The notes under the pieces: generated by a model | Told to the model about the DNA's origin: nothing | What the model saw: only the letters and a program-made list of their open reading frames with translations | Database searches by the model: none | IMG/VR virus record: IMGVR_UViG_3300018424_000079 | Location: 1-36,486 of that record | Reading direction: 5' to 3' (one strand) | DNA length: 36,486 bases | Source of the DNA: a virus | Program-made: the position numbers and the translations under genes | Shown here: piece by piece, positions 12,467 through 36,486 of the stretch | Layout: each line of letters opens with the position of its first letter | Numbering within the stretch: the first letter of the stretch is position 1

Positions 12467-12794
12467 GTGCCAGTGGGATGGCTGTGGTGTCCAGGCATCC
12501 TATCACGTTTTCAACAGCACTGGTAGGGATTCGGCGTTGCTTTGCGGCTTTCATCGCAAAGTAGCGCTAATCAACTTAGCCGAGTACGATCTAGTCTTCT
12601 CTCCCAATACCCACCGTAATGTCCCCCGCCGTCCTGGCGATCTGGGCAATATGAGGGAGGATGACAGGGCGGCTCCGGCAGATTGGGAGCAGGAAGCAGC
12701 CCAGAACGCCAGCGATTCCGCTGTGCCTATCGACGAGTTTAAGCTCAAGCGTTTCACGCAAATCGATGACCTGCCGGGGCCTAGGAGTGATTAA
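12459..12794 (+). CDS. Small protein with a probable zinc ribbon
   Basis: The protein has 111 residues, with a GTG start overlapping the previous gene by 8 bases. C4, C9, C29 and H32 (C-x4-C, then C-x2-H) make a credible single zinc site at the N-terminus; the remaining ~75 residues are polar and acidic, probably disordered. It directly precedes the large terminase, whose ATG overlaps its stop by one base. Its role is unknown; it may be a packaging accessory. Confidence 0.55.
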   Translation: MSECQWDGCGVQASYHVFNSTGRDSALLCGFHRKVALINLAEYDLVFSPNTHRNVPRRPGDLGNMREDDRAAPADWEQEAAQNASDSAVPIDEFKLKRFTQIDDLPGPRSD

Positions 12795-18356: not shown

Positions 18357-19358
18357 ATGGCACGCCTTTTTGCAGATAACATCAACTTCCGAAATGGCCA
18401 GATGGTCATTGAGGAAGACGGGCAGGTTCAGGAGATCATCGCGACCTCCGATGCCAAGCAGTTCTTCACCACGGCCGTCAACGAGTTCTTCATGCAGGAC
18501 GATGTTGACGCCGACACGCAGTGGGAGCAAATCTTCCGCGTCGTGCCGGGTCGTGGCCACGGCGAGTTGTTCCCGTTCCGTCCGCCGACCACGATCACCA
18601 CTGCTAGCGCCGCGACGGCCCTGGCTGCGGAGGACGAGGCCAGCAGCGGTTCGCACGGCATCGTGTTCAACGAAGTCGGCGAAGGTGGCGAGATCAAGTT
18701 CAGCCGCATCGTGTCGGCCGAGAAGTATGTCCGTCACGTGAAGTACGCGACGGCCATCGGCTACTCGAACGAGTGGTTCTCGGACGGTCAGATGTCGCTG
18801 GTTGAGATGGTGACGGAAGACTTCCGCACTGCCGCTAACGACAAGCTGGCCGCAATCCACTACGGTGCGATCGTCGCGTCGGTAACGTCGGGCCTGTCGG
18901 CTTCGACCGCTTACAGCGCGTCGGCCAGTGGTAGCGGTAGCGGCGTCATCGCCGGTCTCGTCAACACGATGAACACGGTCACGACCACCATGCGTCGCAA
19001 CCGCCGTTCGCCGAGCATCATCCTGTGTGCGCCCGAGAACGAGCAGCCGCTCCGCATCGCGATGAACACCCAGGGCATCCAGTCGTCTGGTAACGCTCCG
19101 CAAACGGAGGCGACTAGCCGTCTGCGGATGATCGTGTCGGACTACATCGCTGCTGGTACAGCCTATGTGATCGAGCCGCAGAAGCGACTGATCAGCACCA
19201 ACCGTCTGCCGCTTAGCCTGGGTAACTTCCAGGATCTGCTGCACGACAGCGAAGTGCTGGTCGGTAAGTTCCGTCGCGGTGTCCTTGTTGGCGAAGCTGA
19301 AGTGATCCACGCTATCACCAGCATGCCGACCGCGATCGCTAACGACAGCGACATCTAG
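18357..19358 (+). CDS. Major capsid protein
   Basis: The protein has 333 residues, with a strong site (AGAGGAG) before the ATG and the most uniform codon use in the window. It is expected to have the HK97 fold: an N-arm, then the long helix region with SAEKYVRHVKYATAIGYSNE and FRTAANDKLAAIHYGAI, a Ser/Gly/Thr-rich loop (~180-200), and a C-terminal domain with LRIAMNTQG and FQDLLHDSEVLVGKF. It is identified by position (after protease and decoration genes), length and composition. The following terminator suggests high-level separate transcription. Confidence 0.8.
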   Translation: MARLFADNINFRNGQMVIEEDGQVQEIIATSDAKQFFTTAVNEFFMQDDVDADTQWEQIFRVVPGRGHGELFPFRPPTTITTASAATALAAEDEASSGSHGIVFNEVGEGGEIKFSRIVSAEKYVRHVKYATAIGYSNEWFSDGQMSLVEMVTEDFRTAANDKLAAIHYGAIVASVTSGLSASTAYSASASGSGSGVIAGLVNTMNTVTTTMRRNRRSPSIILCAPENEQPLRIAMNTQGIQSSGNAPQTEATSRLRMIVSDYIAAGTAYVIEPQKRLISTNRLPLSLGNFQDLLHDSEVLVGKFRRGVLVGEAEVIHAITSMPTAIANDSDI

Positions 19359-20493: not shown

Positions 20494-21873
20494 ATGAGCA
20501 ATAAGATCAAAATCCTTTTTATGTCGGATTGGGGTGACACCGGATTCGGCACGGTCGGTAAGGAACTCTGCGTACGTTTTGCAGAGATGGGCATTTTCGA
20601 TGTCCACTATCTCGGATGGCATGCCAACCCCAACGATGTTGGACCTGCCGCCAGAGAGGGAATCACTCTACATACGACCAAGTTCTGGGACGGATCGGAC
20701 CAGTTCGGTAAGCACTCATTCAACCACATCGTCGACAGGGTGCGTCCTGACGTAGTTCTGACGCTCGGCGATCCGTGGATGGTTGACCATGTCCAAACTT
20801 GCCCTACACGCGACAGCTTCACTTGGATTGGCTACGTCCCTATCGACCGAGACGTAATTAGTGTCCCCTGGATAGCACAGCTCAAGAAGCCCGACTGCCT
20901 CGTCCTTTACAGCCAGTTCGGTATTGATGTAGTTGAAGAGCAGATTCCGTTCAGGAATCCTCGCCTCATCCTGCATGGCGTCGATAAGACGACTTTCAAG
21001 CCGTGGTATCCGCAGGGGACTGATGAGAACACCCCGCTTCCCGAAGTGCAGCGCGCTCGTAAGGTAGCCTTGGGCCAGCAGTTCATCGATAAGTTTGTCG
21101 TAGGGTTCGTCGGCCGCAATCAAATCCGAAAGGGTATACCGCACGCCTTCAAGGCTTTCAAAGCTTTCAACTGCGCTACATGGATCGACAGGCAGGATGT
21201 GACTGTCCGCAATCCTGATACTGGCGAGGTCGAGGACAACTTTACCGCCGAGGAGTTCTGCCGAGACAAGCAGTGTTTCCGTTGCGATGTATGCCCTGCA
21301 TTCCAGCAGCGTGAGCAGACTGAAGACTCAGTCTTGTATCTGCACACGACTCGTGGCGACGGCAGTAATCCGCAGGATAGGCCCGGTATCGGCTGGAGGA
21401 TCGACGAGCTTGGCCACAGGATGGGGCTGCATGGCCGCGTCGCTATGACTCCGAACCTTGACGTTCTGAAGGGTGTCCCACGCGCCGTCCTGGCGCAGAT
21501 AATGCAATGTTTCGATGTCCACCTGTTCTTGTCGCATAGTGAGGGGTACGGGCTTCCGGTGGCTGAGACGCTCTCGTGCGGCGTCCCCACGTTGGTTACC
21601 AACTACAGCTCAATGCCTGAGCTGGTATCGGAAGGCGGAGGCGTCGCCATCGATGTTAGGGCCTACGACACCTTCACTACTTGGGAGAACGAGTGGGCCA
21701 TCGCCGATGTGGGTCACGCAGCCGACGAAGTGAATAAGATTTTCGAGGACTCTGAGTACGCAGCTAACATGCGTAGAGAAGCCGCTAACAACAGCTACAC
21801 ACCCGACTGGCACCAAGTAGCCTTGCAGTTCCGACGCTTGATACTTGAGGCCGTTAACCAGCCCGAATCTTAG
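20494..21873 (+). CDS. GT4-type (GT-B fold) glycosyltransferase
   Basis: The protein has 459 residues. The N-terminal domain begins KIKILFMSDWGDTGFGTVGK and the C-terminal domain has the EX7E motif (H348-S-E350-G-Y-G-L-P-V-A-E358) followed by LSCGVPTL, as in retaining GT4 enzymes, which transfer a sugar from a nucleotide-sugar. Between them, four cysteines (256, 261, 264, 267) form an inserted probable zinc site, unusual for the family. The substrate is not visible: candidates are a modified DNA base, a virion protein or a host glycan. It sits in a mixed block between head and tail genes. Confidence 0.75.
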   Translation: MSNKIKILFMSDWGDTGFGTVGKELCVRFAEMGIFDVHYLGWHANPNDVGPAAREGITLHTTKFWDGSDQFGKHSFNHIVDRVRPDVVLTLGDPWMVDHVQTCPTRDSFTWIGYVPIDRDVISVPWIAQLKKPDCLVLYSQFGIDVVEEQIPFRNPRLILHGVDKTTFKPWYPQGTDENTPLPEVQRARKVALGQQFIDKFVVGFVGRNQIRKGIPHAFKAFKAFNCATWIDRQDVTVRNPDTGEVEDNFTAEEFCRDKQCFRCDVCPAFQQREQTEDSVLYLHTTRGDGSNPQDRPGIGWRIDELGHRMGLHGRVAMTPNLDVLKGVPRAVLAQIMQCFDVHLFLSHSEGYGLPVAETLSCGVPTLVTNYSSMPELVSEGGGVAIDVRAYDTFTTWENEWAIADVGHAADEVNKIFEDSEYAANMRREAANNSYTPDWHQVALQFRRLILEAVNQPES

Positions 21874-21875
21874 TT

Positions 21876-22109
21876 ATGACCGATACCAAGCCTGGATCAG
21901 CTTCCACCGAGTGGAAGATGGTCGTTCTCAACTACATCGTCGGCGTCCTCCTGCTGGCTGCGTCCTTGTGGATGCAGATGCAGGGGCATGACACTACTGC
22001 GATCACTACGATCGCAGTGGGGTTTCTCGGGGTTAACGGTCTTGGTTACGGAGCCCTTCGCACCGTCCACAAGAACAAGGTTTCCGAGAATACGGAGGTC
22101 CAATCGTGA
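21876..22109 (+). CDS. Two-helix membrane protein, holin-like
   Basis: The protein has 77 residues. Hydrophobic helices at ~17-34 (VLNYIVGVLLLAASLWMQ) and ~42-60 (AITTIAVGFLGVNGLGYGA), with short charged ends, fit a small class of holins. The start overlaps nothing but lies 2 bases after the glycosyltransferase stop. The next gene starts inside its stop (GTGA). A lysis role is plausible because a possible lipoprotein follows, but no endolysin is seen nearby. Confidence 0.5.
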   Translation: MTDTKPGSASTEWKMVVLNYIVGVLLLAASLWMQMQGHDTTAITTIAVGFLGVNGLGYGALRTVHKNKVSENTEVQS

Positions 22110-22471
22110 TTAGGCTGTCTGTTATCTGCTGCCTGATGTCGGCTAGCTGTATCTCTCCCGACACTCAGCCTGTGATTGATACAGTCATCGAGTGGAAGCG
22201 GATCGAAGATAGCGAACTCGGCAAGCATCGTGAACTCGCCTTGGCGGCAAAGTTTTCGGACGATGCTGGGGAGCAGGAACGCTTGTCGGCGCAATATCTG
22301 GCATTGATCGATAAGCATAAGCAGGCGAGCGATGAATTCGCCATGAAGCTCATCGACTGGTCGCGCAAAGTTGGTAGCTTTGACTCTGCTTACGCGGATG
22401 GCCAAATCGACAAGCTAATCGAGGTTTACGAGCGCATCCGTAGGATAAGGGAGATGCTTGATAATGACTAG
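22106..22471 (+). CDS. Small exported or lipoprotein-like protein
   Basis: The protein has 121 residues from a GTG overlapping the previous stop. Residues 1-15 (IRLSVICCLMSASC) form a short hydrophobic lead ending in a cysteine at 15, like a weak lipobox (the -3 to -1 residues are not the standard ones). The rest is a charged helix or coiled coil (ELALAAKFSDDAGEQERLSA, IDKHKQASDEFAMK). Following a holin-like gene, a spanin or lysis accessory is possible but not shown. Confidence 0.5.
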   Translation: MIRLSVICCLMSASCISPDTQPVIDTVIEWKRIEDSELGKHRELALAAKFSDDAGEQERLSAQYLALIDKHKQASDEFAMKLIDWSRKVGSFDSAYADGQIDKLIEVYERIRRIREMLDND

Positions 22472-22739
22472 CATGGATGTCGATCCTTTCGATGGAGATG
22501 AAGAGGTGGATTGGGGCTCTGCTCCTAGCCCTATCGAAGTCGATCTCACACAAGCCAGTCCTGAAAAGATTCTTGAGCTACTGAAGGATCACATCGATGA
22601 AGAGTCAGCGAAGTCGCTCATAACTAGACTCGAAGGATCCGCCGACGACTACGAGCGCAATATTCGGCGCATTCAACAGATGCTTACGGGCATCCAGTCG
22701 GTGCTCGGCGCAGCTATCAAGATAGTAGCGATAATCTAG
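22464..22739 (+). CDS. Small acidic protein with a hydrophobic C-terminus
   Basis: The protein has 91 residues. AAGGGAG lies 10 bases before the ATG at 22464; a TTG at 22458 is too close. It is acidic at the N-terminus (DVDPFDGDEEVDWG), helical in the middle and ends in a hydrophobic helix (GIQSVLGAAIKIVAII) that could insert in a membrane. Its function is unknown; it may belong with the two preceding small membrane proteins. The stop overlaps the GTG of the next gene. Confidence 0.5.
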   Translation: MTSMDVDPFDGDEEVDWGSAPSPIEVDLTQASPEKILELLKDHIDEESAKSLITRLEGSADDYERNIRRIQQMLTGIQSVLGAAIKIVAII

Positions 22740-23623
22740 TGAATCGAGTAGGGCAGTACTGTCATGTTGCATTCTCCGGGGGGAGAACCAGTGCTTATAT
22801 GACACGGATGCTCTTGACCGAGGGGCGTGGGCTATTCGATGAATACATCGTATGCTTCGCTAACACTGGTCGTGAGCATCCTAAGACTCTCGACTTTATC
22901 AAGAAGTGCGATGATGAGTTCGGCTTCAACACCGTTTGGCTTGAAGCGGTCGTAGATCAGAGAAAGGGTAAGCAGATTACTCACAAAGTAATCGACTACG
23001 ACACGGCATCAAGAGACGGGCAGCCATTCGAGGATGTCATACGTAAGTATGGCATTCCGAATGTCAGTAGACCTCACTGCTCTGATAAGTTGAAGAAGTA
23101 CGTGATGTCGAGCTACATTCGTAGCCTAGGTCTGAAAGCATCCAGGGTTCCCACTGCTATCGGTATCCGAAACGACGAGTCTCGTCGTGTGTCAGGCACA
23201 GAGGCTGATGTAATCTACCCACTGATAGATATATGGAGTGTTGATCGTGAGCATATACTTCTGTGGTGGGAAGACCAGACCTTCGACCTGGAGATAGACG
23301 AGTTTGAAGGTAACTGTCAAGCCTGCTACAAGAAGTCTTTTCATAAGCTGCATTTGCAGATGGAGCGCGATCAGAGCGTGTTCGACTGGACAGACGAGAT
23401 GGAGCGGAAGTATGGCCACATCAATGCCAGGTCTAAATCGCCATACAAAAATAACAGCAAGGTTTGGGAGGAGAAAAGAGGTTGTAGGAGCGTGTTTTTC
23501 CGTGGCGGGAAAAGCACGCAAGACTTGAGAGATGAGCATGTGAGGCTCCAAGGCAATTACCGTAAGCCTCCTGAAGATGAAGGAGGCTGCTCAGAGAGTT
23601 GCGAGCCTTTCGCTACTGGTTGA
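22739..23623 (+). CDS. PP-loop protein of the PAPS reductase/ATP pyrophosphatase family
   Basis: The protein has 294 residues from a GTG at 22739. HVAFSGGRTSAYM holds the PP-loop (SGGRTS, 13-18), followed by the FANTGREHPKTLDFIKKC segment typical of this family and HCSDKLKK near 118. Cysteines at 193, 196, 249, 284 and 288 could hold an Fe-S cluster. The fold adenylates a substrate and swaps in sulfur or nitrogen; relatives include PAPS reductases and DndC of DNA phosphorothioation. DndA, D and E are not in the window. With the DpdA-like, Mom-like and glycosyltransferase genes it may belong to nucleic acid modification, but its substrate is unknown. Confidence 0.65.
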   Translation: MNRVGQYCHVAFSGGRTSAYMTRMLLTEGRGLFDEYIVCFANTGREHPKTLDFIKKCDDEFGFNTVWLEAVVDQRKGKQITHKVIDYDTASRDGQPFEDVIRKYGIPNVSRPHCSDKLKKYVMSSYIRSLGLKASRVPTAIGIRNDESRRVSGTEADVIYPLIDIWSVDREHILLWWEDQTFDLEIDEFEGNCQACYKKSFHKLHLQMERDQSVFDWTDEMERKYGHINARSKSPYKNNSKVWEEKRGCRSVFFRGGKSTQDLRDEHVRLQGNYRKPPEDEGGCSESCEPFATG

Positions 23624-23647
23624 TGATTCTTGCCTGAGTAAGAGTCA

Positions 23648-23686
23648 ATGGCATGCCATACCTGTTTATCGTTGTATCACAGGTAT
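23648..23686 (+). promoter_or_regulatory. Palindrome and start-codon-embedding hairpin
   Basis: ATGGCATGCCAT (23648-23659) is a perfect 12-bp palindrome, and overlapping it, ATACCTGT / ACAGGTAT (arms of 8, loop of 13; 23658-23686) forms a stem that contains the AGG of the next gene's ribosome binding site and the AT of its ATG. Translational control by hiding the start is a natural reading, with the palindrome as a possible protein site. Confidence 0.5.
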
Positions 23687-24194
23687 GGCCACCAGTGCGC
23701 AGATACTGAAGCTTCGTCGTAAGATCCAGGATTACTACAGCGCCCGCACAGGCGAGGTTCTTACCACCAGCGAGCAGGCATTCAAGGATGATGAGCTAGA
23801 GGACATCATCGACGACGCTGCTGCCGAATCAACGGATGGCGGCTCTACTGCCGCCGATTTAGCGCCCAAAGATGAGGCGCTGACTATGATTCTCGCCCGC
23901 GCTGATGCCATGTTGCAGATAGCGCAGGACGAGGCTCGCAGGGTGAAGTGGCAGACGGGTAACGAGATCCAAGACCCTTCTAAGGTCGCGGAGAACCTTG
24001 TCATGGTCGCTGAGGCTCTCCGCAGGCGATACAAGGATGCCAGGGATCGTGCGCTTAGAGAGGAGATCGCGGGCGTTGGCAGCCGTCCTACGGGCAAGAA
24101 CATGCACTTCAACGATACCGTAAAGCGCAACTACGAGCGCAACTTCGATAACGGTACTGTGAAGCGCAATCGCTCTCGCGACCACCTCTACTAA
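23685..24194 (+). CDS. Putative head-tail connector protein
   Basis: The protein has 169 residues. The ATG at 23685 has AGG just upstream; a longer frame from 23577 would overlap the PP-loop gene. The start (ATSAQILKLRRKIQDYYSAR) resembles the N-terminal helix of head-tail adaptors of the HK97 gp6 or lambda FII type; the middle is acidic (DDELEDIIDDAAAE) and the end basic. Its place at the start of the neck genes, before head-closure and tail-completion genes, supports a connector role. The family is inferred from position and pattern. Confidence 0.5.
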   Translation: MATSAQILKLRRKIQDYYSARTGEVLTTSEQAFKDDELEDIIDDAAAESTDGGSTAADLAPKDEALTMILARADAMLQIAQDEARRVKWQTGNEIQDPSKVAENLVMVAEALRRRYKDARDRALREEIAGVGSRPTGKNMHFNDTVKRNYERNFDNGTVKRNRSRDHLY

Positions 24195-24640
24195 TGGGCA
24201 CCTACCGTAGACAACACCACATCCACATAAGCGACACTGCTGATCTCATCAGCGATCAGCTACGTCGTGATATGTTCGATGGGAGCGAGGACGCGACTGA
24301 GATCCGTCGTCGGTCGACCAATGTAACTATAGACCCTTACACGGAAGAAGTTGTCTACAGTAGCGCAGACACATGGGAGCCTATTTCAGGCATCGTGTCC
24401 ACGGTGTCGGAAGGCGACACGCTTCTCGCTGGCGGTAGGATGAACGTCGGCGACACGATGGTGCTGTATCACTACGACACCATCAGCGGTGTGTACCTAC
24501 AGAATGAGATCAACGACATTCACGTTGCTGTTCCGGGCGTTAGCGGATTCTACCATGTTGCAGCCAGCATGGTCGAGACCGTTGGCGGTAAGCCCATGTT
24601 CCTGAAAGTTGGCTTAAAGTTCGATTCAAATGCCATCTAA
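24194..24640 (+). CDS. Putative head-closure/neck protein
   Basis: The protein has 148 residues; the ATG overlaps the previous TAA by one base. It is beta-rich, with GDTLLAGGRMNVGDTMVLYH and a short VPGVSGFYHVAASM ending, as in small neck or stopper proteins. Position between the connector and the HK97 gp10-like gene supports this. No catalytic motif is seen and the exact family is not certain. Confidence 0.5.
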   Translation: MGTYRRQHHIHISDTADLISDQLRRDMFDGSEDATEIRRRSTNVTIDPYTEEVVYSSADTWEPISGIVSTVSEGDTLLAGGRMNVGDTMVLYHYDTISGVYLQNEINDIHVAVPGVSGFYHVAASMVETVGGKPMFLKVGLKFDSNAI

Positions 24641-25076
24641 AATGACGTTCGGGTTCCGAAAGACCAACGCTTTCGGATTCAGGATTGATCTCGTCGAGTC
24701 GCCTACTGGCCGCACGCCTAGCGAAAGGACTAAGAAAAACCTTGCTAAGTACGTGGTTAAGAATATGAACAAGATGGGCGAAAAAGCCTATAAGACTACT
24801 CAGAGAAGGGGCTGGACTCCTTTTGATACTGGTGCTCTGAGGGCATCCATCCATTGGCAAGACGCTAGGGTTACTGGTGTAGCGAATGTGGTTCCAGGCG
24901 TACTGTCCGCTAACGTCCCCTATGCCGCCCTTTACGAGTTAGGTAATTCACACCCAAGGCGGCGGTACCTGGGCAGGGCGATCGACAAGCACCAACCTGC
25001 GTTCGTACGAGCTTTGAACAAGCGCAAGATCGTCGAGGATATCACCTTCGGCCGTAGCGACGCACAAACATTCTAA
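24630..25076 (+). CDS. HK97 gp10-like tail-completion protein
   Basis: The protein has 148 residues. TPFDTGALRASIHW, then VPYAALYELG, then the arginine-rich turn and YLGRAI match the signature of HK97 gp10-type neck/tail proteins (DTG-x-L-R-x-S-I ... Y-A ... E-x-G ... F/Y-L-x-x-A). They stand between the neck and the tail terminator. The N-terminus is basic with a coiled stretch. It overlaps the previous gene by 11 bases and the next by one. Confidence 0.7.
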   Translation: MPSKMTFGFRKTNAFGFRIDLVESPTGRTPSERTKKNLAKYVVKNMNKMGEKAYKTTQRRGWTPFDTGALRASIHWQDARVTGVANVVPGVLSANVPYAALYELGNSHPRRRYLGRAIDKHQPAFVRALNKRKIVEDITFGRSDAQTF

Positions 25077-28000
25077 TGGCTGACCGTCTAGTAGACTTCG
25101 CGACTAAGAGTCTCGTTCACTATATCGAGACCAATGTCAGCGTCGACAACGCTTACATCGTCACGCCTGACTTCAATTGGGATCGTAAGCCTGACCCACT
25201 GGATCCTGGCAACAAGACTGTTGATAGGGGTCTTCCTTACGCTGCCGTACAGCTGATTGAAGACAGGGAAGTTCCGTTCACGGTATCCGGCAACATCCTG
25301 TATGAGGCGAACATCACTGTTGAGATCAGTGTATGTGCTTCTACCTACACGCAGTGCGTCAGGCATACGTCGGACATCAAGCAGGCGTTGCGCACTGCAA
25401 CGTCTGACACTTCAGGCGTCGGCATCACCCTATACGACTTCAACACTGTAGAAGGCGAGTTCTACGCTGCGGCTGGAACTATTCAGCTTGATATTCAAGG
25501 CAGCGACTTCCCCGCGCCTGAGGGTCAAAAGCAGGAGGGTAACTACAAATACCGATCGTTGACCGTAGTGACTCTGACCGCATTCCGTGACGCTACAGCC
25601 ACTCTACTTGAGGATAAGAATCGAATTAGCATAAATGAGGTTATCACTGTCGCCGAAGGTGGCGGAGGTGTAGGCGAAGGAGGAGACGATGGCGGACAAG
25701 ATGGAGGAGGAACTGACGGCCCGGATGGAGGAGGCGATACTGAAGAAGTCGTCCCGCTGCTGCTGGACACCTATTCCGGTGCGGCAGGCGCCTACAGTGT
25801 TCGGAAACTTCGGACCGAATGGACAGGGTCGTGCATCAGAGTTCGTGAAGACATCGGCGAGACCGAGGCGGATATCGGTTTTGATACCGATGGCAACCTC
25901 GACACGCAAGCTATAGCCGATCACTGCGGCGATGCAGATGGCTACATCGTGTCGTGGTACGATCAGAGCGGTAACGATCGTCACTTGACACAGAGCACTG
26001 CGTCGCAACAGCCTAAAATCTATGAAGGGTCTACAGCGACGGTTACTACTGTCGACAATGACCCGTCGATCTTCTTCGACCAGGATATAAACGCAGTCCT
26101 CATCAACTCCTCTTTCACTTACTCAACAACGATCAGCTTCTCGATCGTCTACAAGGCGAATCTTGCTAGTGAAAGTTACAAGTACCTGTTTAACAACGGT
26201 CCGAGCAACGGAGTCCGTTTCCAGATATTGACGACTGGAGAGCCCAATCTATACACGAGCGGCGACGGTCGCACTTCAACTTACAAGGCATTTGATGATG
26301 AAACCAGCTTGGTGTTCGGGGCGTTAGTCAACTCGAACACTAGCAGCAACGTATGGATCAACGGTGAAAACTTCATAAGCTCTACCTCGCAAGTAATTGT
26401 ACCTTCTACGGGGACACTGAATGTAGGCAACTACAACGGTAGCGGCAATTACGCCCTGCGCGGCCACATTCAAGAGTTCATCATCTGGGATACCGATCAG
26501 ACTAGCAACAGGCAGGGTATCGAAGACAACGTAATCAATCGATACGAGATCAACTTCGGGCTGCTTGATAAAGATGCCGTCAATGCTGAAGCTGCCATAA
26601 GCGTTCGCAGGCTTAAGCGCAGCTACACAGGGTTCTGCATGCAGATTCGTGAAGCCGCTGGGGATACGCTCCAGAATATCGGCTTTGACGTTTACGGCAA
26701 CCTAGACGTAGCGGCGATTAAGGCACACTGCGGAAGCTCAGTCGGCTATGTCGTACGTTGGTACGATCAATCAGGTAACGGCAGACACGCTATACAGGAG
26801 ACGCCCTCACAACAGCCTGCAATATATAACGGTTCAGATGTATTTGCAGCTAACCAGAGGCCAGCCGTAGATTTCAACCTAGTCTCCTCAAGTATGCTTG
26901 AGCTAGTCAGCAACCCTTTGAGCGGGGTGACTGGAGCTACGGTGTTCACAGTGTATACTCGCAACACTGGTAACAATCTTGGCGTTTGGACCCTTAACAG
27001 GGGCACCAATATTACCGGCGAGCAGTCAAGCCTATATCCGAACTCGAGTCTTTATTCGTTTAGTGGTCGATCGAGTTACGATATCTCTAATCACCGAGGT
27101 CTTTCATATTTTGATGGCGGTTACTGGTGGCGTCAATCGATGGTGGGCGTCTTTTATCCCGAAGGTGGATATTTGTCTGAGATAAAGAAATCGTCTAATA
27201 CCGAGTTGGCTGTGGCCAGCGGTGTGAACAGCGGATTGCCTACCTACTCGGATCCGCTTTACGTCACGACACAGAGCTTTGCTAGCCTAGGTACTACAGT
27301 CCTAGGAACAAATTGGGGCAATGGTTACTTTAGTGGTCGTATGCATGAGTTCGTCGTTTACTCGGTTGATAAGATCAATAGCCGTGTCGAACTAGAGGCG
27401 AACATTGACTATTACTATAAGTCATCAAACCAAGGTTTCGTCAACCTTTTTGCTACCTATGGGCAGGATGTGATACCTGCCGCGTACAGTGTATCAAGAG
27501 TCAATAACCACTACAAGGGCTTCTGCCTTCGTGTACGAGAGTCGAGCGGCAACACAGAAAAGGACATCGGGTTCGACTCGCGGGGAATACTTGATGTCGA
27601 CGCGATCAGTCTCTTCTGCGACCAGTCGACTGGTTATGTCGTGAAGTGGTACGATCAGTCAGGCAACGGCCGTCACGCGACGCAATCTACGCAGGCGGAG
27701 CAGCCTATCATCTATGAAAATGGAGCCGTCATCCGTGATCGCAACAACTACCGATATGGTTTGAAGTGGGAGGACGGCCAGAACCAGTCGCTGTCTGCTT
27801 CTTTCGGTAGGACCGTACCGCAGCCGATCGTATCATTATGTATAACTAGCGGCGCACCTACTAATGATGAGGAACAGTATGTATTTGATAGCGCAGGCGC
27901 TACTAATCGCTTGTATATGAGAAGGTCTTCTAACAACCGTTATGCGATGTATGGCGGGAATCAACTTGAAGATCCGAGTACATTCAGCACCAGCCCGATC

Positions 28001-28270
28001 GATTATTCGCGGGTATGGGCGATGATTTTCGATGGGTCCAGCAGCTACTTCGCTAGAGATCGAAGCCAGCGTGCTGTCGGTGATATCGGCAGCAACTCGA
28101 TGGATAGCGTTGTTATCGGAAACTACGGACAAAGCCCATCATCGACCTACAATTGGGACGGCTATGTACATATGCTCGTTTTCATGAGAGATGTCGAGGA
28201 TCTCCTGTATGCTTATCGCGACACCATGCAGGTAATCCTTCAAAATAACACTTACAATCCGATGATATAG
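25076..28270 (+). CDS. Tail-terminator-like domain fused to three lectin-like modules
   Basis: The protein has 1064 residues. Residues ~1-190 look like a tail terminator (LPYAAVQLIEDREVPF, NILYEANITVEISVCAST then helix, as in gpU-type proteins), which caps the tail tube at the neck. An acidic glycine linker (~198-224, GGGGVGEGGDDGG) follows. Then come three copies of a module starting at ~239, 507 and 803 (spacing 268 and 296): each begins A-Y/I-S-V, has C-x-x-R-R/V-R-E and a WYDQSGN-x-R-H core, as in arabinofuranosidase-like and LamG/ConA-like phage modules, and then a ~150-residue beta-rich part. Such modules bind sugars. A terminator with large adhesive extensions at the neck is unusual. 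Confidence 0.7.
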   Translation: MADRLVDFATKSLVHYIETNVSVDNAYIVTPDFNWDRKPDPLDPGNKTVDRGLPYAAVQLIEDREVPFTVSGNILYEANITVEISVCASTYTQCVRHTSDIKQALRTATSDTSGVGITLYDFNTVEGEFYAAAGTIQLDIQGSDFPAPEGQKQEGNYKYRSLTVVTLTAFRDATATLLEDKNRISINEVITVAEGGGGVGEGGDDGGQDGGGTDGPDGGGDTEEVVPLLLDTYSGAAGAYSVRKLRTEWTGSCIRVREDIGETEADIGFDTDGNLDTQAIADHCGDADGYIVSWYDQSGNDRHLTQSTASQQPKIYEGSTATVTTVDNDPSIFFDQDINAVLINSSFTYSTTISFSIVYKANLASESYKYLFNNGPSNGVRFQILTTGEPNLYTSGDGRTSTYKAFDDETSLVFGALVNSNTSSNVWINGENFISSTSQVIVPSTGTLNVGNYNGSGNYALRGHIQEFIIWDTDQTSNRQGIEDNVINRYEINFGLLDKDAVNAEAAISVRRLKRSYTGFCMQIREAAGDTLQNIGFDVYGNLDVAAIKAHCGSSVGYVVRWYDQSGNGRHAIQETPSQQPAIYNGSDVFAANQRPAVDFNLVSSSMLELVSNPLSGVTGATVFTVYTRNTGNNLGVWTLNRGTNITGEQSSLYPNSSLYSFSGRSSYDISNHRGLSYFDGGYWWRQSMVGVFYPEGGYLSEIKKSSNTELAVASGVNSGLPTYSDPLYVTTQSFASLGTTVLGTNWGNGYFSGRMHEFVVYSVDKINSRVELEANIDYYYKSSNQGFVNLFATYGQDVIPAAYSVSRVNNHYKGFCLRVRESSGNTEKDIGFDSRGILDVDAISLFCDQSTGYVVKWYDQSGNGRHATQSTQAEQPIIYENGAVIRDRNNYRYGLKWEDGQNQSLSASFGRTVPQPIVSLCITSGAPTNDEEQYVFDSAGATNRLYMRRSSNNRYAMYGGNQLEDPSTFSTSPIDYSRVWAMIFDGSSSYFARDRSQRAVGDIGSNSMDSVVIGNYGQSPSSTYNWDGYVHMLVFMRDVEDLLYAYRDTMQVILQNNTYNPMI

Positions 28271-28273
28271 ACC

Positions 28274-28669
28274 GTGGCTAATACATACCTTTCCGTGGTG
28301 CCGAGGGCGGGCCTTACCAGTGAAGAGAGGGCTGACGCCATCAACTCTGAGCTTTATCGACTCAAGTTGCCGCTACACCTACAGCCCGAAGGCCACTTGA
28401 CAGATGCCCTATTGGCAAAAATCAAGCACCCCGAAACTGGCGACTGCGCCCTTGTCGCTCAGTCTTCGTTCACCATCCGTGTTCATGAAGAGGCGGACAC
28501 AGATGCTCTCGTAGCACTTTTCCCACATCTGTCAGAAGAAGAGGAGCAGGCGATTGTATCACTGATTGTCCCTGGCTCCGACATTCGACTGTCCGACATA
28601 ACCCCTGGCGACACCAACATCATGACTCAACTGGAGGCGGAAGCCACTGGTTGGTTCACAGCCTCCTAG
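28274..28669 (+). CDS. Hypothetical tail-module protein
   Basis: The protein has 131 residues from a GTG start 4 bases after the previous stop. It is a mixed alpha/beta acidic protein with no recognised motif (ALVALFPHLSEEEEQAIVSL is an acidic helix). It lies between the terminator fusion and another short tail gene and may be a small tail-tip or assembly factor; that is only positional. Confidence 0.5.
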   Translation: MANTYLSVVPRAGLTSEERADAINSELYRLKLPLHLQPEGHLTDALLAKIKHPETGDCALVAQSSFTIRVHEEADTDALVALFPHLSEEEEQAIVSLIVPGSDIRLSDITPGDTNIMTQLEAEATGWFTAS

Positions 28670-28761: not shown

Positions 28762-29301
28762 ATGGCAGCTGATATCCCATCCGGTCCTGAAGGCTTCAAC
28801 ACCACCTTCAAGGACATCGGCTCGATGATTGCGATCTACGATGAGATCGTCGCAGGCAACACTAACGTGAAGACCAAGCTGGTCGCCTCCATCGAGCAGC
28901 AAGACTACGACTATGGCACCATAAAGTCGCTTTCGACTTTCATCAACAACATGGTTGCCGCTTCGAACAACCTTGACACTGCGAAGACGAATCTCGTCAG
29001 CGCTGTCAACAACTACGTAACTGTCGTTGCGAAGGCTGACATTAACTCCACTGCGACGACTGTTTCAGGCGTCTTGGCTGATCTTGTCCTTGCGATGGAT
29101 GGAGCTACCAGTGGCACGCCGTCTGGCGTAGTTGCCCTTACGGGAGGCAACTTCGACACGTTCTTCAAAACTGAATTGAGCGTCGAGCTTCCGACCGGAG
29201 CTTCGGACGTAACAGTTCTTAACAACACTGAGGCAACTAACCTTAAGAGTGGCACTTTGCCTGCCGCTCAACGAAGGATCGACGACACCTACGCTGACTA
29301 A
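28762..29301 (+). CDS. Putative tail structural protein
   Basis: The protein has 179 residues and is rich in Thr, Ser, Asn and Val, with regular hydrophobic spacing (FINNMVAASNNLDTAKTNLV) suggesting long helices in the first half and beta strands in the second (GASDVTVLNNTEATNLK). AAGG lies about 8 bases before the ATG. It precedes the tail tube gene. I cannot name the family; it is a probable virion protein. Confidence 0.5.
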   Translation: MAADIPSGPEGFNTTFKDIGSMIAIYDEIVAGNTNVKTKLVASIEQQDYDYGTIKSLSTFINNMVAASNNLDTAKTNLVSAVNNYVTVVAKADINSTATTVSGVLADLVLAMDGATSGTPSGVVALTGGNFDTFFKTELSVELPTGASDVTVLNNTEATNLKSGTLPAAQRRIDDTYAD

Positions 29302-29325: not shown

Positions 29326-30066
29326 ATGGCAGGTATTCACGGAAAGAACGCTTCTATCCGGGTCAGCACTTCTGAGAGTGTTGTTTCCGGCGTCGAGATG
29401 ACGGGCACGCAGGGTAGCTACTTCCAGGCTGGGGCAAGCTCCCGTAACTGGAGGTACGACGACGGCGTCCTGGTTCAGTTCAACAGTAACGACGGCGGCG
29501 AACAAGGCCCCGCTGAACTGATAACTGACAGCTCGATCGCACAAGACAGAGGCTACACGGGCATCAACACGCAGACTCGCCTGATTAACTACGCTGCTGG
29601 CGCCATCCACCTGGGCCAACACCCTGGTGTTGTGTCCGGTGTTTACGCCATGGCCACCAGCATGCAGCTTTCGCAGGTCGCTAACCTTGTTGGCGATGCG
29701 CGTAGCTTCACTGTGTCGGTGACCAACGACACCGTCGACTCGACGGTGATCGGAGATAGCTGGAAGCAGTTTGAGGACGGCCTGTCCGGCTTCGAAGGCT
29801 CGCTGGAGGGTTTGGTAGTCGACGAGTTCTGGTACCGTCGATCGATCGCCACCCTGTCTGGCCTTCTGCCGCGCACTGTGTGCCGTTTCCAGATTGACCC
29901 ACGGGACGCCACCAGCTACTACCAGGGCACCGTCATCTTCCCAAGCTTCGAGCTTACGGGCGGATTCGACGCCCTTGTCGAGTACAACGTGCCCTTCCAG
30001 GGCCGTGGTCCGCTCGACTTGGTTCAGAACGGAACGCCGTTCTTCAAGATTCATGAAGTCACTTAG
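29326..30066 (+). CDS. Major tail tube protein
   Basis: The protein has 246 residues. Beta-rich, it begins AGIHGKNASIRVSTSE and has VSVTNDTVDSTVIGDSWKQF, then GSLEGLVVDEF and SFELTGGFDALVEYNVPFQ, which fit the tail tube fold (as in lambda gpV and its relatives) and its usual phrasing. It comes just before the tail assembly chaperone, as expected. After the TAG stop the same frame stays open for 17 codons (LATPVGDGDDEGGGGGE, then TAA), an acidic glycine tail, so stop readthrough or a lost extension should be considered. Confidence 0.8.
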   Translation: MAGIHGKNASIRVSTSESVVSGVEMTGTQGSYFQAGASSRNWRYDDGVLVQFNSNDGGEQGPAELITDSSIAQDRGYTGINTQTRLINYAAGAIHLGQHPGVVSGVYAMATSMQLSQVANLVGDARSFTVSVTNDTVDSTVIGDSWKQFEDGLSGFEGSLEGLVVDEFWYRRSIATLSGLLPRTVCRFQIDPRDATSYYQGTVIFPSFELTGGFDALVEYNVPFQGRGPLDLVQNGTPFFKIHEVT

Positions 30067-30203: not shown

Positions 30204-30590
30204 ATGGGCAAGATCCTTAGCAAGGACGACATTTTCAAGAAGCAGGGCCTGCGTCCCCGCACTGTCAACGTACCGGAGTGGGGGGGCGATATTCGCTACC
30301 GTCCCATGTCCATGACTGAGCGTCGCGAGATTCGAAAGAAGAGCACGACCACGAGTATCAAGGGAGGCAACACCGATGTGCAGATCGATAGTGAACTCAT
30401 GGAGGTGTATACTGTCATCACTTGCGTGCTCGACCCGAAGGATGACGACAAGCTGATGTTTGGTCCCGAGGATCTTCCGATCCTTGAGTCGCACATGTCC
30501 GCTGGAGGCATTAGCACGATCGCTCAGGCTATTCTTCGCGATAGCGGAATGGGCGGCGAAGCTACCTTTTCAAGCGAAGAGGACGATTGA
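30204..30590 (+). CDS. Tail assembly chaperone (gpG-like)
   Basis: The protein has 128 residues and ends in an acidic tail (FSSEEDD). Small, charged and located between the tail tube and tape measure genes, it fits the first chaperone (lambda gpG role), which holds the tape measure protein during tail assembly. A second open frame, shifted by +1 relative to this one, continues beyond its stop, as expected for a frameshift product. The ATG at 30204 lies 27 bases after the terminator-like hairpin. Confidence 0.7.
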   Translation: MGKILSKDDIFKKQGLRPRTVNVPEWGGDIRYRPMSMTERREIRKKSTTTSIKGGNTDVQIDSELMEVYTVITCVLDPKDDDKLMFGPEDLPILESHMSAGGISTIAQAILRDSGMGGEATFSSEEDD

Positions 30591-30839: not shown

Positions 30840-33800
30840 ATGGCAAACAGGTTTACCGTATCGTTCCGCGTCGTCGACCGGGCTAGCAATGCTTTCCGGC
30901 GAATAGCCCGTTCGACACAGGAGATCGAACGGTCCTCCAAGAACGCCTCGGCGCAGTTCGCCAACATGGCGCAGGTCACCTTGGCGACCACTGGCGCCAT
31001 GGTTGCCGGTTTCACTTCCGCCGCTGCGGCGGCAGGTGAAGTCGAGGACGCCTTGGCGCGTCTCCAGACGGTCACCCGTGGTACTGCGGAGCAGATCGAA
31101 AACTCTCTGAACAGCGCGAAGTCGGCGGCACTTGCGTTCAGCACCGAGTTTACTGCATCTAGTAGAGAGCTTGTCGACGCGCAGTTCCAGATAGCTACGG
31201 CAGGCGTCGCAGTCGAGGAGCAGATCGCTGCTACCCAGGGCGCCTTCAAGCTGGCAGTTGCGACACAAGGTACGTTCGCACAGTCGACGCAGCTTCTTGG
31301 TAGTCTTTTGAACACGTTCGGCAAGGCTGCCGAGTTCAACTACCTTGATCCTGCTCGTAAGGTCGAGGCTATTACTGACAAGCTGTCGCTGGCTGTGCAG
31401 CGATTCCAGGTGACACTGCCCGTCTTGGCAGAGTCCTTGAAGTTCGTCATCGGCCCTGCATCTACGCTGGGTCTGAAGTTTGCTGAGGTGACTGCCTCTC
31501 TCGGTGTTCTCAACACGGCAGGCTTCCGTGGTTCGCTCGCAGGCACCGCACTCAGCAACATGTTCAACAAGCTCGACCGCGCTGTCGACATGTTGAACTT
31601 GGACACGAGCAAGTTCGTCGATCTGAACGGTAACCTGAAGGACATGGCGTCCTTCCTGGAGGAGGTAGAAAGAGGTATCGCTGGCATGACCTCGATCGAG
31701 CAGCAGAACAAGCTGATCGAGGTGTTTGATATTCGCGCCGGTCGAGTCGTTAAGACACTGCTGAACCAGGTCGGTGCGATTCGTAAGAACACGCTTGAGA
31801 TGGAACTCAACCGTGGTGCGACGCAGAAGATGGCCAATCTTCAGCAGAATACCCTGAGCGCTGCGACTCAAAAAGCTAGTAACGCTTTCAATAATCTTGC
31901 GATTACGCTGGGCGATTCGATTTCGCCTGTATTGAAGGAGTCAGTCGTCCTGTTGACTGGCATGGCTAAGTCTTTCACGACGGCCATCAAGGCGATGGGG
32001 CCGTTTGGCTCCAGCCTCATCAGCCTTATCGCAACTACGTCAGCTTTTGTTGCAGGCTTGACAGCCGCCCGTGTTGCCCTGAGGGCGATGTCGGCCGCTG
32101 GATTCGGGCTAGTTGCGACTAAGGTCTTGAAGCTGGCGACGAACATGAGATTGCTGAGTCGGTATATGACCCTGGCTGTCATACCGGCGATCCGACACCT
32201 AGTCAAGGTAATCGCTACTCGCCTCACTACTGCTTTCATAGCAGCGAGTCGCGCAATGACGGTGGGCCTGTTCAAGGCTATGATGAATCTGGTGCCTTTG
32301 ACTTGGGCGACAATCAAAAGCACAGTGGCCTTCATCGCCGCTGAATATGCTCGTATAAAAGCCATGCTTTTGAGCAGCGCTGGCGTCCAGGCTCTCGCAG
32401 CCAACCTTGTCCGTCTGGCTGTCACTGCGGCGATAGTGACTGGCGGTATTTACCTCATAGTTGTAGCTTTGGGGGCGTTGATGTCAGCTTTCATACCTGC
32501 TATGGATGGCGCTGACGGACTCAACCTAAGCCTTTTGAACATATCCAACAGTATTGTTGGCGTTCAAGGTCAGTTGGCTCAAGGTATAGATGAGCTCAGT
32601 CGCCTGTCGAAGCTTGGTAAGACTGACGTCAAGCTTTTGGAGGCAGGCGAGGTGGGTGCCACCCCGCTGGCCAAGATGTTCGATGAGCTCACTACTGCTA
32701 CTGGCCGAAGCATTGAGAAGGTTGAGAAGCTGAAGGAGCGACTGAAGAATATTGCTCCTGACGCTGCTATTGAAGTCACTGCCTCCATGTTGCAGTTTGA
32801 GGATCAGTTTGAAGGGGGCGCCGCAGCAGCTAAGAAGTTTGCTGAGGATATGCGCAATGTCAGGATGAGCAGCGATGCTGGGTTCAAGAGCCTTGACGAG
32901 TTGGGCCGTGCTGCTGTTATTGGATCAGACGCTATGGAGCTATTTAGGCTCCAGATTACTGCTGCTGCTGGCGGCAACGATACTCTTGCTGAGAGCCTTT
33001 TGAAGGTCAACGAGCAGCTTGGAGCGATCGACCGCGCCTCCCAAGGTATGGGGGAGTTGCTCAAGCGATTGGATGATGCCTTTACAGGTGCAAGACCCTT
33101 CGAAAATAGAAATGAAAGGTTCGCAGTCACCGCCCAGATCAAGGCCATCAAAGACCAACTGCCTGAGCTTAAGAAGCAACTAGCTACCAATATTCTGGAT
33201 GATGAGTTCAGGGCGCAACTTCAAAGATCGGCTGATAAGAGCAACCCGATTGTCGCCGCCCTGCTTAACACTTTGAATGATCCTCAGGCTAAGTCGGCGA
33301 TAGCTAACAAGGCTACTGAGGATCTCGGAGAACTACTCGTCAATGGTATGAAGAGGGCCAAGATTACTGACGCCTTCTCCGAAGATATGTTGGGCGCGGT
33401 CGAGTTCGGCAATTTGACGAAAGCGCTGAACGCCGCCGTTTCTCGTGCTGGTTCATTGCAAGAGAAGCTGGAGGAGGGAGCTAAGAGCGCTGTCGATGTC
33501 GCTAGGGGAGTTGATAGCGCCCTGGACGAAGCTCCTCAAAAGATAGCGCAACTCAGGTCTTTGCTGAGCATGGACCTCGCGCAGTCTTTGAAGAATGTCG
33601 ACAATGCATTCAAGGAGATGCCTCTTGAGGAGGCGTTCCAGAAAATACAGGACGAAGTTGATCAACTAGACTTCAGGCTGTTTGAGGAGCAACTCGCAAG
33701 AACTGCTATGGCTTGGCAGGAGCAGATTGCTAAGTCTATCAATGCGATCGATCCGGGGCCACTGCGCAGAGAGCTGGGTAAGCTCGCTAAGGATTTTGGC

Positions 33801-36486
33801 GAAGATATAGGCTCGGCTGTCAACGAGTTCTTGATGGGCGGCAGCAGGATCGATCTTGGCGAGGCCATACGAGACAAGCTCGGCAACATGGTCATCGGCA
33901 ACATGGGCCAATCAATCGCCGAGCAACTGTTCGTTGGTATCGGCCCCCAAGTCATCGAGCTACAGGGCATGATGCGGGAAGCCTTCAATCCTGACAACCT
34001 GGATATCTCAGGAGGTTTCCAGGGCATCCAAGATAAGTTCATGCGAGTTCTTGGATCTACTGAGCTTGGAAGGGCCTTGCTTGCAAGCATGGACGGTGTT
34101 CCCGGCCAGTTCAGCAAGAAGCTGATGGAGTCGATACAGGAGATCCAAGTCGACCTCGATATCATGAATGCTAGGCGCGACCTCGACAATGTCAGCGCCG
34201 GATTCGCACAGGAGCTACAGGATGTTGTCGAGCGGTCTCTTAACGACACTAGCGTTGAAGGACTGCAACGAAGTGTCAACAACGCGCTGGACCTTCTCTC
34301 CGAGGCTACAGCGTCTGGTGCCGACTCCTCGGTCGTACGTCTGATCGAACAACAGATTAAGGCATTCAAGGAGGCGCAGAAGGAGACTGGACAGAGTAAG
34401 CTGCTTGAGCATATCGCTGGGTCAGCCACCAAGGTCCAAGTAGCTATATCTCAGGGCGCCACTGACTTTGCCCGTATAGCTCAAAGCATCAACTCAGGGA
34501 TGCAGGCCATTGGTGTCGCGCCAACAGGAGGCGTGAGGACCGCTATAGCGCCTACTAATTTGGACATCGTCGATCAGGTTGCCGCTTCGGTAGCCGACGT
34601 AGCGGCGAGAGCTATGGCCTTACAGTCGCAGGCGTTGCCAGATGCGGTCGAAGGACCGACATCCGGCGGGTCGCTAGACGATCACCTCGCACCCCTGCGT
34701 ATAGGCGCGCAAGGCTTGGAGGCACAGATAGGGCAAGTTAACAATAAGTTCCAGGAATCGGCCCGACAATTGAGTGATTACGCTCGTGTCACGGACATGA
34801 CGCGAGAGATGGCGATAAGACTGAACGACAAGATAGGGCCAGTCGTAGCAGGGTTGGGCAAGTTTGGTAGCGATGTCGTCAACTTCTTAGACCAAAATGC
34901 GTTCAAGGAGATGAGGGCTACTCGGGCGCAGGAGGTCGCCAAGGGAGTAGAGACTACTCAGGCACAGCAACTGTCGAAACTGACTATCTTGAAGGACATG
35001 GCGCGGGTTCTGATGACTAACCTCAAAGATGAGGTGGGTCCAGAAGTAGGCCCGGCTGTAGCGGGTATTCGTAAGTTTGGTGAGGATGTTGTCAACTTCT
35101 TGAAGCACAATGCATTCAAGGAGATGAGGGCTACTCGGGCGCAGGAGGCAGCTAAGGAAGTAGAGACTACTCAGGCGCAGCCGCTTTCAAACTTTACTCG
35201 TGTTGCCGATATGGCGCGAGTAATGATGAATAACCTGAAGGATGAGGTTGGACCAGCGGCCTCAGGTATTCGTAAGTTCGGTAGCGATATCGCAGCGTTC
35301 CTGGACCACAATGCGTTCAAGGAGATGAGGGCCACTCGGGCGCAGAAGGTCACCAAGGAAGTAGAGACTACCCAAGCACAGCCGCTTTCAAACTTCACTC
35401 GTGTTGCCGATATGGCGCGAGTAATGATGAATAACCTGAAGGATGAGGTTGGGCCAGCCGCCTCAGGTATTCGTAAGTTTGGTGAGGATGTTGTCAACTT
35501 CTTGAAGCACAATGCATTCAAGGAGATGAGGGCCACTCGGGCGCAGAAAGTCACCAAGGAAGTAGAGACTACTCAGGCGCAGCCGCTTTCAAACTTTACT
35601 CGTGCTACCGATATGGCACGAGTAATGATGAATAACCTGAAGGATGAAGTTGGACCAGCCGCCTCAGGTATTCGTAAGTTCGGTAGTGATATCGCAGCGT
35701 TCCTGAACCATAACCTCTTCAAGGAGATGAGGGCTACTCGGGCGCATAAGGTTACCAAGGAAGTAGAGACTACTCAGGCGCAGCCGCCTTCAAACTTTAC
35801 TAGCGCTACCGATTTGGCGCGAGTAATGGTGGATAACCTGAAGTTCCAGGTTGGATCAGCCGCCCCAGGTATTCGTAAGTTTGGTGAGGATGTTGTCAAC
35901 TTACTGAATCAATATGCATTCAAGGAGATGAGGGCTACTCGGGCACAACCTGTGCCTGATTCAACAGTCGATATTGGAACGTCAATCGAGGGCGCGATCG
36001 TTAAGGCAACACGCCTTACTAAGCAGCCGATCGAAGGTGTCGCTACGGAGATAAAGAGCGCGGTTGCTAGAATGGCGCCCGCTGCTCCGTCGCCAACGGA
36101 TGGCGCTGCTGCGCAGATAGAGAGCGCGGTTGCTAGAATGGCGCCCGCGTCGGCCGACGCATCTCCGATGGAGAACGCTACTGCTGCATTGACACATGCG
36201 GCTAACACTTTGTTGGCAGCCGCCACGAAGCTCGACAATCTGGCTACCCCACTTGCCGAAGCTACAAGGAATACAGCTACTGCTCCGTCGCCAGCGGATG
36301 GCGCTGCTGCGCAGATAAGGGAGGTGACTACAGCAATAGCCCAAACCCTGTCGGCCGACGCATCTTCGATGGGGAACGCTGCTGCTGCATCAATACGTGC
36401 GGATAACACTTTGTTGGCAGCCTCCACGAAGCTCGACAATCTGGCTACCCCACTTGCCGAAGCTACAAGGAATACAGCTACTGCTC
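30840..36486 (+). CDS. Tail tape measure protein (partial, runs off the window)
   Basis: At least 1882 codons are read from the ATG at 30840 with no stop. The N-terminus (FRVVDRASNAFRRIARS, then a region with ALARLQTVTRGT, LGVLNTAGFRGSLAGTALSN and FDIRAGRVVKTL) carries the standard tape measure signature. Residues ~360-570 are hydrophobic helices, as expected for the part that crosses the host membrane. A long helical middle follows. The C-terminal part visible here has two sets of repeats (see repeat features). By the known rule of about 1.5 angstrom per residue, the tail would be some 280 nm or longer. No ribosome binding site of good quality precedes the start. The end and any lytic domain lie outside. 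Confidence 0.9.
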   Translation, partial: MANRFTVSFRVVDRASNAFRRIARSTQEIERSSKNASAQFANMAQVTLATTGAMVAGFTSAAAAAGEVEDALARLQTVTRGTAEQIENSLNSAKSAALAFSTEFTASSRELVDAQFQIATAGVAVEEQIAATQGAFKLAVATQGTFAQSTQLLGSLLNTFGKAAEFNYLDPARKVEAITDKLSLAVQRFQVTLPVLAESLKFVIGPASTLGLKFAEVTASLGVLNTAGFRGSLAGTALSNMFNKLDRAVDMLNLDTSKFVDLNGNLKDMASFLEEVERGIAGMTSIEQQNKLIEVFDIRAGRVVKTLLNQVGAIRKNTLEMELNRGATQKMANLQQNTLSAATQKASNAFNNLAITLGDSISPVLKESVVLLTGMAKSFTTAIKAMGPFGSSLISLIATTSAFVAGLTAARVALRAMSAAGFGLVATKVLKLATNMRLLSRYMTLAVIPAIRHLVKVIATRLTTAFIAASRAMTVGLFKAMMNLVPLTWATIKSTVAFIAAEYARIKAMLLSSAGVQALAANLVRLAVTAAIVTGGIYLIVVALGALMSAFIPAMDGADGLNLSLLNISNSIVGVQGQLAQGIDELSRLSKLGKTDVKLLEAGEVGATPLAKMFDELTTATGRSIEKVEKLKERLKNIAPDAAIEVTASMLQFEDQFEGGAAAAKKFAEDMRNVRMSSDAGFKSLDELGRAAVIGSDAMELFRLQITAAAGGNDTLAESLLKVNEQLGAIDRASQGMGELLKRLDDAFTGARPFENRNERFAVTAQIKAIKDQLPELKKQLATNILDDEFRAQLQRSADKSNPIVAALLNTLNDPQAKSAIANKATEDLGELLVNGMKRAKITDAFSEDMLGAVEFGNLTKALNAAVSRAGSLQEKLEEGAKSAVDVARGVDSALDEAPQKIAQLRSLLSMDLAQSLKNVDNAFKEMPLEEAFQKIQDEVDQLDFRLFEEQLARTAMAWQEQIAKSINAIDPGPLRRELGKLAKDFGEDIGSAVNEFLMGGSRIDLGEAIRDKLGNMVIGNMGQSIAEQLFVGIGPQVIELQGMMREAFNPDNLDISGGFQGIQDKFMRVLGSTELGRALLASMDGVPGQFSKKLMESIQEIQVDLDIMNARRDLDNVSAGFAQELQDVVERSLNDTSVEGLQRSVNNALDLLSEATASGADSSVVRLIEQQIKAFKEAQKETGQSKLLEHIAGSATKVQVAISQGATDFARIAQSINSGMQAIGVAPTGGVRTAIAPTNLDIVDQVAASVADVAARAMALQSQALPDAVEGPTSGGSLDDHLAPLRIGAQGLEAQIGQVNNKFQESARQLSDYARVTDMTREMAIRLNDKIGPVVAGLGKFGSDVVNFLDQNAFKEMRATRAQEVAKGVETTQAQQLSKLTILKDMARVLMTNLKDEVGPEVGPAVAGIRKFGEDVVNFLKHNAFKEMRATRAQEAAKEVETTQAQPLSNFTRVADMARVMMNNLKDEVGPAASGIRKFGSDIAAFLDHNAFKEMRATRAQKVTKEVETTQAQPLSNFTRVADMARVMMNNLKDEVGPAASGIRKFGEDVVNFLKHNAFKEMRATRAQKVTKEVETTQAQPLSNFTRATDMARVMMNNLKDEVGPAASGIRKFGSDIAAFLNHNLFKEMRATRAHKVTKEVETTQAQPPSNFTSATDLARVMVDNLKFQVGSAAPGIRKFGEDVVNLLNQYAFKEMRATRAQPVPDSTVDIGTSIEGAIVKATRLTKQPIEGVATEIKSAVARMAPAAPSPTDGAAAQIESAVARMAPASADASPMENATAALTHAANTLLAAATKLDNLATPLAEATRNTATAPSPADGAAAQIREVTTAIAQTLSADASSMGNAAAASIRADNTLLAASTKLDNLATPLAEATRNTATA
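34857..35945 (+). repeat. Six 67-residue repeats in the tape measure gene
   Basis: The anchor TTCAAGGAGATGAGGGC recurs at 34902, 35115, 35316, 35517, 35718 and 35919 (first spacing 213 bases, then four of 201). Each unit codes for a FGxDxxxFLxxxxFKEMRATRAQ core and PLSNFTR-type linker. Units alternate between GSD and GED types, so the array grew as a pair of units (402 bases). Copies are nearly identical in DNA, which points to recent amplification. Confidence 0.85.
36055..36486 (+). repeat. Second repeat set at the edge, 201-base period
   Basis: The stretch from AACACTTTGTTGGCAGCC to GCTACTGCTC occurs at 36203-36284 and 36404-36486 with only one or two differences, a spacing of 201 bases, and the second copy reaches the window end. 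A shorter 66-base unit (GCGGTTGCTAGAATGGCGCC) repeats at 36060 and 36126. The encoded region is Ala/Thr-rich (TLLAAATKLDNLATPLAEAT). Confidence 0.8.

Follow-up and report, generated by a model that had tools for sequence, protein, structure and literature searches.

The closest described counterparts of the protein analyzed here are the phage tail terminators, such as lambda gpU, SPP1 gp17, T5 p142, and R4C vBDshSR4C_018 (PF11367; PHROG 347). Known terminators are mostly small, and some have extra domains, for example for interaction with the sheath (PMC11784142). Hexameric terminator rings have been described for R4C (PMC10276861) and for T5 (PMC11784142); in T5, the terminator C terminus contributes to the contact between neighboring subunits (PMC11784142). 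The NPS collars of lactococcal 936 and P335 phages place carbohydrate-binding modules at the neck (PMC6669499, PMC4493119), and one 936 neck module was shown to bind its host (PMC6669499); these modules belong to a separate, nonessential protein with a BppU-like N terminus, and TP901-1 retains its own 129-amino-acid terminator. Anabaena phage A-1(L) carries long, flexible neck fibers (gp82-gp81-gp80 on gp5), in which separate fiber proteins are hooked to a pentadecamer to give five arms, with no terminator fusion (PMC10966104). The neck whiskers of Alteromonas phage R7M were considered as the same system and rejected, because the R7M terminator is a separate 140-amino-acid protein and the whisker candidate, ORF28, is another gene. 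In the open-licence literature that we searched, we found neither a description of terminators with adhesin modules nor a report of a terminator-adhesin fusion.

Like the known terminators, our target protein is encoded after Neck1 and ahead of the major tail protein, and its modeled N-domain resembles the terminator fold; unlike them, the target carries three modules of ∼270 amino acids. It shares with the NPS collars a predicted placement of carbohydrate-binding-type modules at the neck, and with A-1(L) predicted long, flexible neck arms, but the modules lie on the apparent terminator itself. We conclude that the target is probably a phage tail terminator with C-terminal adhesin arms.

The window (the whole stretch of DNA analyzed, 36,486 bases) is a virus record from an uncultivated contig and represents a partial genome. 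Positions 25076 to 28270 of its + strand form a single uninterrupted open reading frame (ORF) of 1,064 amino acids. Its ATG shares a base with the stop codon of the upstream gene (TAATG), so its translation is probably coupled to that of the Neck1-like gene. The features of the window are as follows.

12794-14455: TerL
14473-16014: portal
18357-19358: capsid
23577-24194, + strand: possible head-tail adaptor, judged from position only
24194-24640, + strand: possible head-closure (stopper) protein, from position only, parallel to L211 (a fusion relative) and phage TripleJ
24630-25076, + strand: Neck1/HK97 gp10-like gene (phrog_5, E = 1.1e-9); its stop overlaps the target start
25076-25645, + strand: N-terminal tail-terminator-like domain of the target, residues 1-190 (custom profile, AF2, Foldseek)
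25646-25759, + strand: acidic, glycine-rich linker, residues 191-228 (read directly)
25760-26560, + strand: GH54/LamG-like module 1, about residues 229-495 (PF09206 and phrog_10356; approximate boundaries)
26561-27445, + strand: GH54/LamG-like module 2, about residues 496-790 (PF09206 stretch; 31% identical to module 1; approximate boundaries)
27446-28267, + strand: GH54/LamG-like module 3, about residues 791-1064 (best PF09206 stretch 801-875; PDB 1wd3, E = 1.9e-4)
28274-28669, + strand: small partner gene, 131 amino acids, GTG start, 3 nt past the target stop codon
28762-29301: 179-amino-acid gene between the partner gene and the major tail protein
29326-30066, + strand: major tail protein (phrog_1407, E = 1.8e-11; L211 has the same family)
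30204-30590, + strand: tail assembly chaperone (phrog_344, E = 1.1e-12)
30840-36485, + strand: tape measure protein (phrog_28, E = 1.2e-44), running off the window

Profile searches returned no match for 23577-24194 and no significant match for 24194-24640. Between the capsid and connector genes, 20494-23623 holds a glycosyltransferase gene and a PAPS-reductase-like gene, an unusual spot for metabolic genes. The phrog_1407 match of the major tail protein starts at residue 120, leaving its first ∼115 residues unmatched.

The linker, VAEGGGGVGEGGDDGGQDGGGTDGPDGGGDTEE, is acidic and Gly-rich, and direct reading places it after residue 190 and ahead of module 1, where the first-pass annotation had put an acidic glycine linker. 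That annotation had also described the ∼840 residues that follow as triplicated WYDQSGN-type modules, which held up: the motif occurs at residues 294, 562, and 858 as the core of each module; the three modules, of ∼270 amino acids each, are pairwise 27 to 31% identical over aligned residues; and Pfam finds PF09206 (GH54 alpha-L-arabinofuranosidase B, catalytic) in three stretches (E = 4.5e-18). Module identity at this level, together with PF09206 in three stretches, argues that the triplication is not due to chance.

Gene order supplies a first line of evidence on the N-terminal domain. The window runs Neck1, target, two small genes, major tail protein, chaperone, and tape measure protein. Its Neck1 is homologous to gp10 of Arthrobacter phage TripleJ, where gp10 is followed by gp11 (annotated as tail terminator), a small gene, and the major tail protein. 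The slot of the target, between the neck genes and the major tail protein, is thus equal to that of TripleJ gp11: the target fills the tail-terminator slot. In L211, the fused terminator comes after a head-tail adaptor, head closure Hc1, and a neck gene, in that order, and is followed by a small gene, a major tail protein (phrog_1407), and the tape measure protein.

The first ∼190 residues had been read at first pass as a neck-side tail terminator, and this reading is supported by a custom profile, gene position, and fold comparison, with Pfam and PHROGs silent: neither the whole target in Pfam nor residues 1-202 in PHROGs matched a terminator family. The custom profile was seeded from two confirmed terminators (L032 and L057) and then iterated. 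With the first version (8 members), the target was the best nonmember, ranking first of 7,597 ORFs (E = 0.14); with a larger version from which the window was left out, the target reached E = 0.005 in the ORF set. Against that larger profile the N-domain alone scored 18.9 bits, compared with a best of 10.1 bits in 2,000 shuffles, and the best reversed ORF in the terminator-profile control scored 9.3 bits. Further iteration gave E = 2e-16, a value not to be counted because the profile then includes the window itself. Within the window (a partial genome, searched with a moderately sensitive profile), the target scored 16.2 bits and the next best ORF 3.4 bits. The 45 best ORFs of a profile built only from seven free-standing terminators do not include the target, so the sequence support for terminator identity is weak. 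Neither the N-domain nor Neck1 nor the full protein gave matches in direct IMG/VR searches, and tblastn of the N-domain against phage records was likewise empty; a search with a Neck1 alignment returned four loci and added little.

Structure prediction of residues 1-190 pointed to a terminator-like fold. From a 34-row alignment, AF2 modeled the N-domain with a helix at residues 2-20, a strand at 25-29, a hairpin at 55-88, a helix at 91-111, and a strand at 130-143; the mean pLDDT was 59.5 over 190 residues, with the core (residues 2-143) at about 63 to 81 and most of it >60. Single-sequence AF2 of residues 1-202 yielded no usable fold (pLDDT 31). The best PDB matches of the model in Foldseek were the R4C stopper-terminator complex, 2GJV, the HFTV1 tail, T5 p142, and other necks, with 4ACV at rank 36; 2GJV and 4ACV are both named as tail terminators in PMC11784142. 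Matches to the R4C, 2GJV, and T5 terminators had probabilities of 0.77 to 0.99 and E values of 4e-3 to 5e-2, with no Foldseek match below 0.001; they were obtained with a model whose alignment contained terminators. BFVD matches included DUF3168, tail completion, and tail terminator proteins. The model is alpha/beta (moderate confidence) and no BppU protein was found among the top 50 PDB matches; the BppU-like N-terminal beta-sandwich of the NPS collar protein was thus not found in the target. Because terminators were in the alignment, the model is partly circular: it is consistent with a terminator rather than independent proof of one, and we regard its resemblance to the terminator fold as moderate. 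The contrary outcomes named in the first-pass annotation were not encountered, given this resemblance and the position of the gene in the terminator slot.

The weakness of the sequence similarity to terminators, and the presence of a 179-amino-acid gene without assigned function at 28762-29301, would suit a different reading, in which the N-domain is another alpha/beta neck or collar protein decorating the ring and the true terminator lies elsewhere, for example at 28762-29301. We consider this doubtful, since that gene scored only 0.7 bits with the terminator profile and relatives with a clear PF11367 domain in the same slot have the same partner gene behind them.

The main support for a terminator-module fusion is its recurrence in other contigs. 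Scans of IMG/VR for the module motif, whose counts are lower bounds from a sample that is not unbiased, brought up contigs with long ORFs that end in this type of module. In at least 29 IMG/VR contigs besides the window, a single ORF combines a terminator domain with a long C-terminal part; the same iterated profile also finds at least 7 free-standing terminators. The terminator domains of the fusion contigs (at least 30, window included) fall into three clusters at 35% identity. All three fusions scanned with Pfam had PF11367 above the cutoff: the N termini of L032 and L057 are Tail_completion_gp17 (1.5e-9 and 1.2e-9) and tail terminator by PHROGs, and that of L142 matches PF11367 at 2.7e-12. 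No second terminator match was found in the fusion loci examined with the terminator profile. When the L142 fusion was searched by tblastn against 50,697 phage records, terminators and modules occurred only in separate records, the fusion being absent at that sensitivity. The window itself is one uncultivated contig, which is the point in favor of an assembly artifact as the source of the fusion; with the reading frame intact and the same kind of fusion in at least 29 other contigs, such an artifact is very unlikely.

Several loci touch on this pattern from other sides. In L154, L184, L208, L207, and L159, the same module type follows other N termini that look terminator-like by eye (that of L159 has a weak PF11367 match, E = 0.05), possibly reflecting repeated capture of modules by different terminators. 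L077, L089, L100, L128, and L239 have a different architecture of ∼1,100 amino acids with a C-terminal module and the partner gene; their N termini do not match the terminator profile, and L128 additionally encodes a free-standing terminator. The same neck cassette is present at L245:5878-8815, on a contig of a Pirellulaceae metagenome-assembled genome (MAG), which may hint at the host, provided that the binning is correct. The module ORF of this contig stops early, and the partner lies several hundred nucleotides further on, which points to a frameshift or an error in the sequence.

Phage structural proteins are commonly processed, and the long, flexible Gly/Asp linker of the target is a possible cut site. 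The N-domain might then be a terminator that loses its modules by cleavage or does not display them on the ring, so that the arms act elsewhere or during assembly only. This seems unlikely to us: the relatives retain the fusion although fiber-like sequence of several hundred residues stands in place of the linker, and Pfam detects no protease domain in the partner gene.

As for the modules, their only clear solved relatives are alpha-L-arabinofuranosidases B. A profile of 32 modules searched against the PDB matched only arabinofuranosidase B chains, at residues 15-88 (E = 1.1e-10), and the best PF09206 stretch on the target covers profile positions 13-89 of 315. GH54 alpha-L-arabinofuranosidase B (PF09206; 1wd3) is thus like the target modules in its N-terminal ∼75 residues, including YDQSGNG, and unlike them in the rest of its catalytic domain, which is unmatched; no module of the target matches the whole GH54 catalytic domain. 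WYDQSGN forms the invariant columns across the 32 modules; outside them the sequence varies, apart from a glutamate that is conserved close to the C-terminal end. Past WYDQSGN, the 32 modules have no invariant acidic pair, and the region is not alignable to 1wd3. The GH54 catalytic residues, E221 and D297, lie outside the part matched by the modules. The kinship with arabinofuranosidases would fit active GH54-like enzymes that degrade cell-surface polysaccharide rather than simple binders, but we judge this improbable, given a match confined to residues 15-88 of the 1wd3 chain and the lack of an invariant acidic pair past the WYDQSGN region in 32 modules. From their sequences, we read the modules as a probable lectin-like derivative of the GH54 fold, for which catalysis is unsupported.

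The same modules are also found on phage proteins of other kinds, minor tail proteins among them, and as single-module genes, which argues for a portable module that has the terminator as one of its anchors. In the phage records of Fizzles (L005), Giantsbane (L008), and CL131 (L003), GH54-like modules are separate proteins among the head-tail and major tail genes; these separate genes may represent a step before fusion. PHROG 10356 (virion structural protein, 852 positions), which matches the target modules at E = 9e-39, looks composite: its positions 4-103 match the L211 head-closure protein and 308-627 the module. Since its first ∼100 positions match head closure, it may be a head-closure/module family with a different neck anchor. 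This make-up hints at head-closure/module fusions in known viruses; none was present among the loci examined.

The 131-amino-acid partner (28274-28669) is 33% identical to its L211 copy and reached E = 1e-16 to its family in the first search pass. It has no Pfam match, and neither the window nor the L211 copy has a match in the phage record collection. In nearly all of the 67 matches listed, the partner family lies directly behind a module ORF. Among ORFs that are complete at the 5′ end and have 300 nt or more of flanking sequence downstream, and counting the matches listed, the partner follows all 19 terminator fusions (window included) and only 16 of 148 other module ORFs. More generally, the family accompanies long GH54-module ORFs, whichever their N-terminal anchor. 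The simplest guess is that the partner serves long module arms as a chaperone or helps to attach them. We regard it as an undescribed family, whose possible role in making the modules is testable.

These features suggest that these phages use the head-tail joint to mount host-gripping arms. Six copies of residues 1-190 would assemble into a ring that closes the tail tube and connects it with the head, with the flexible acidic linker leading each chain outward; the contribution of the T5 C terminus to subunit contact means that such an outward exit is not guaranteed. Up to six arms with three lectin-like modules each would set 18 modules around the neck. There, before the tip of the tail engages, the modules would reversibly contact polysaccharide present on the host or around it, and the small downstream gene may help to fold or attach them. 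With some reserve, we favor the full picture in which an essential terminator ring mounts six multimodule, lectin-like arms with the help of a dedicated partner, an arrangement widespread in uncultured siphophages and missing from cultured ones.

Phage neck adhesins have so far been known as separate accessory proteins, and we found no description of a terminator as an adhesin anchor. If the picture is true, every virion would carry adhesins in fixed number, and host contact would be tied to correct completion of the tail. Recurrence of the fusion in at least 30 contigs makes neck-borne adhesion directly testable and would help to annotate long "hypothetical" neck genes.
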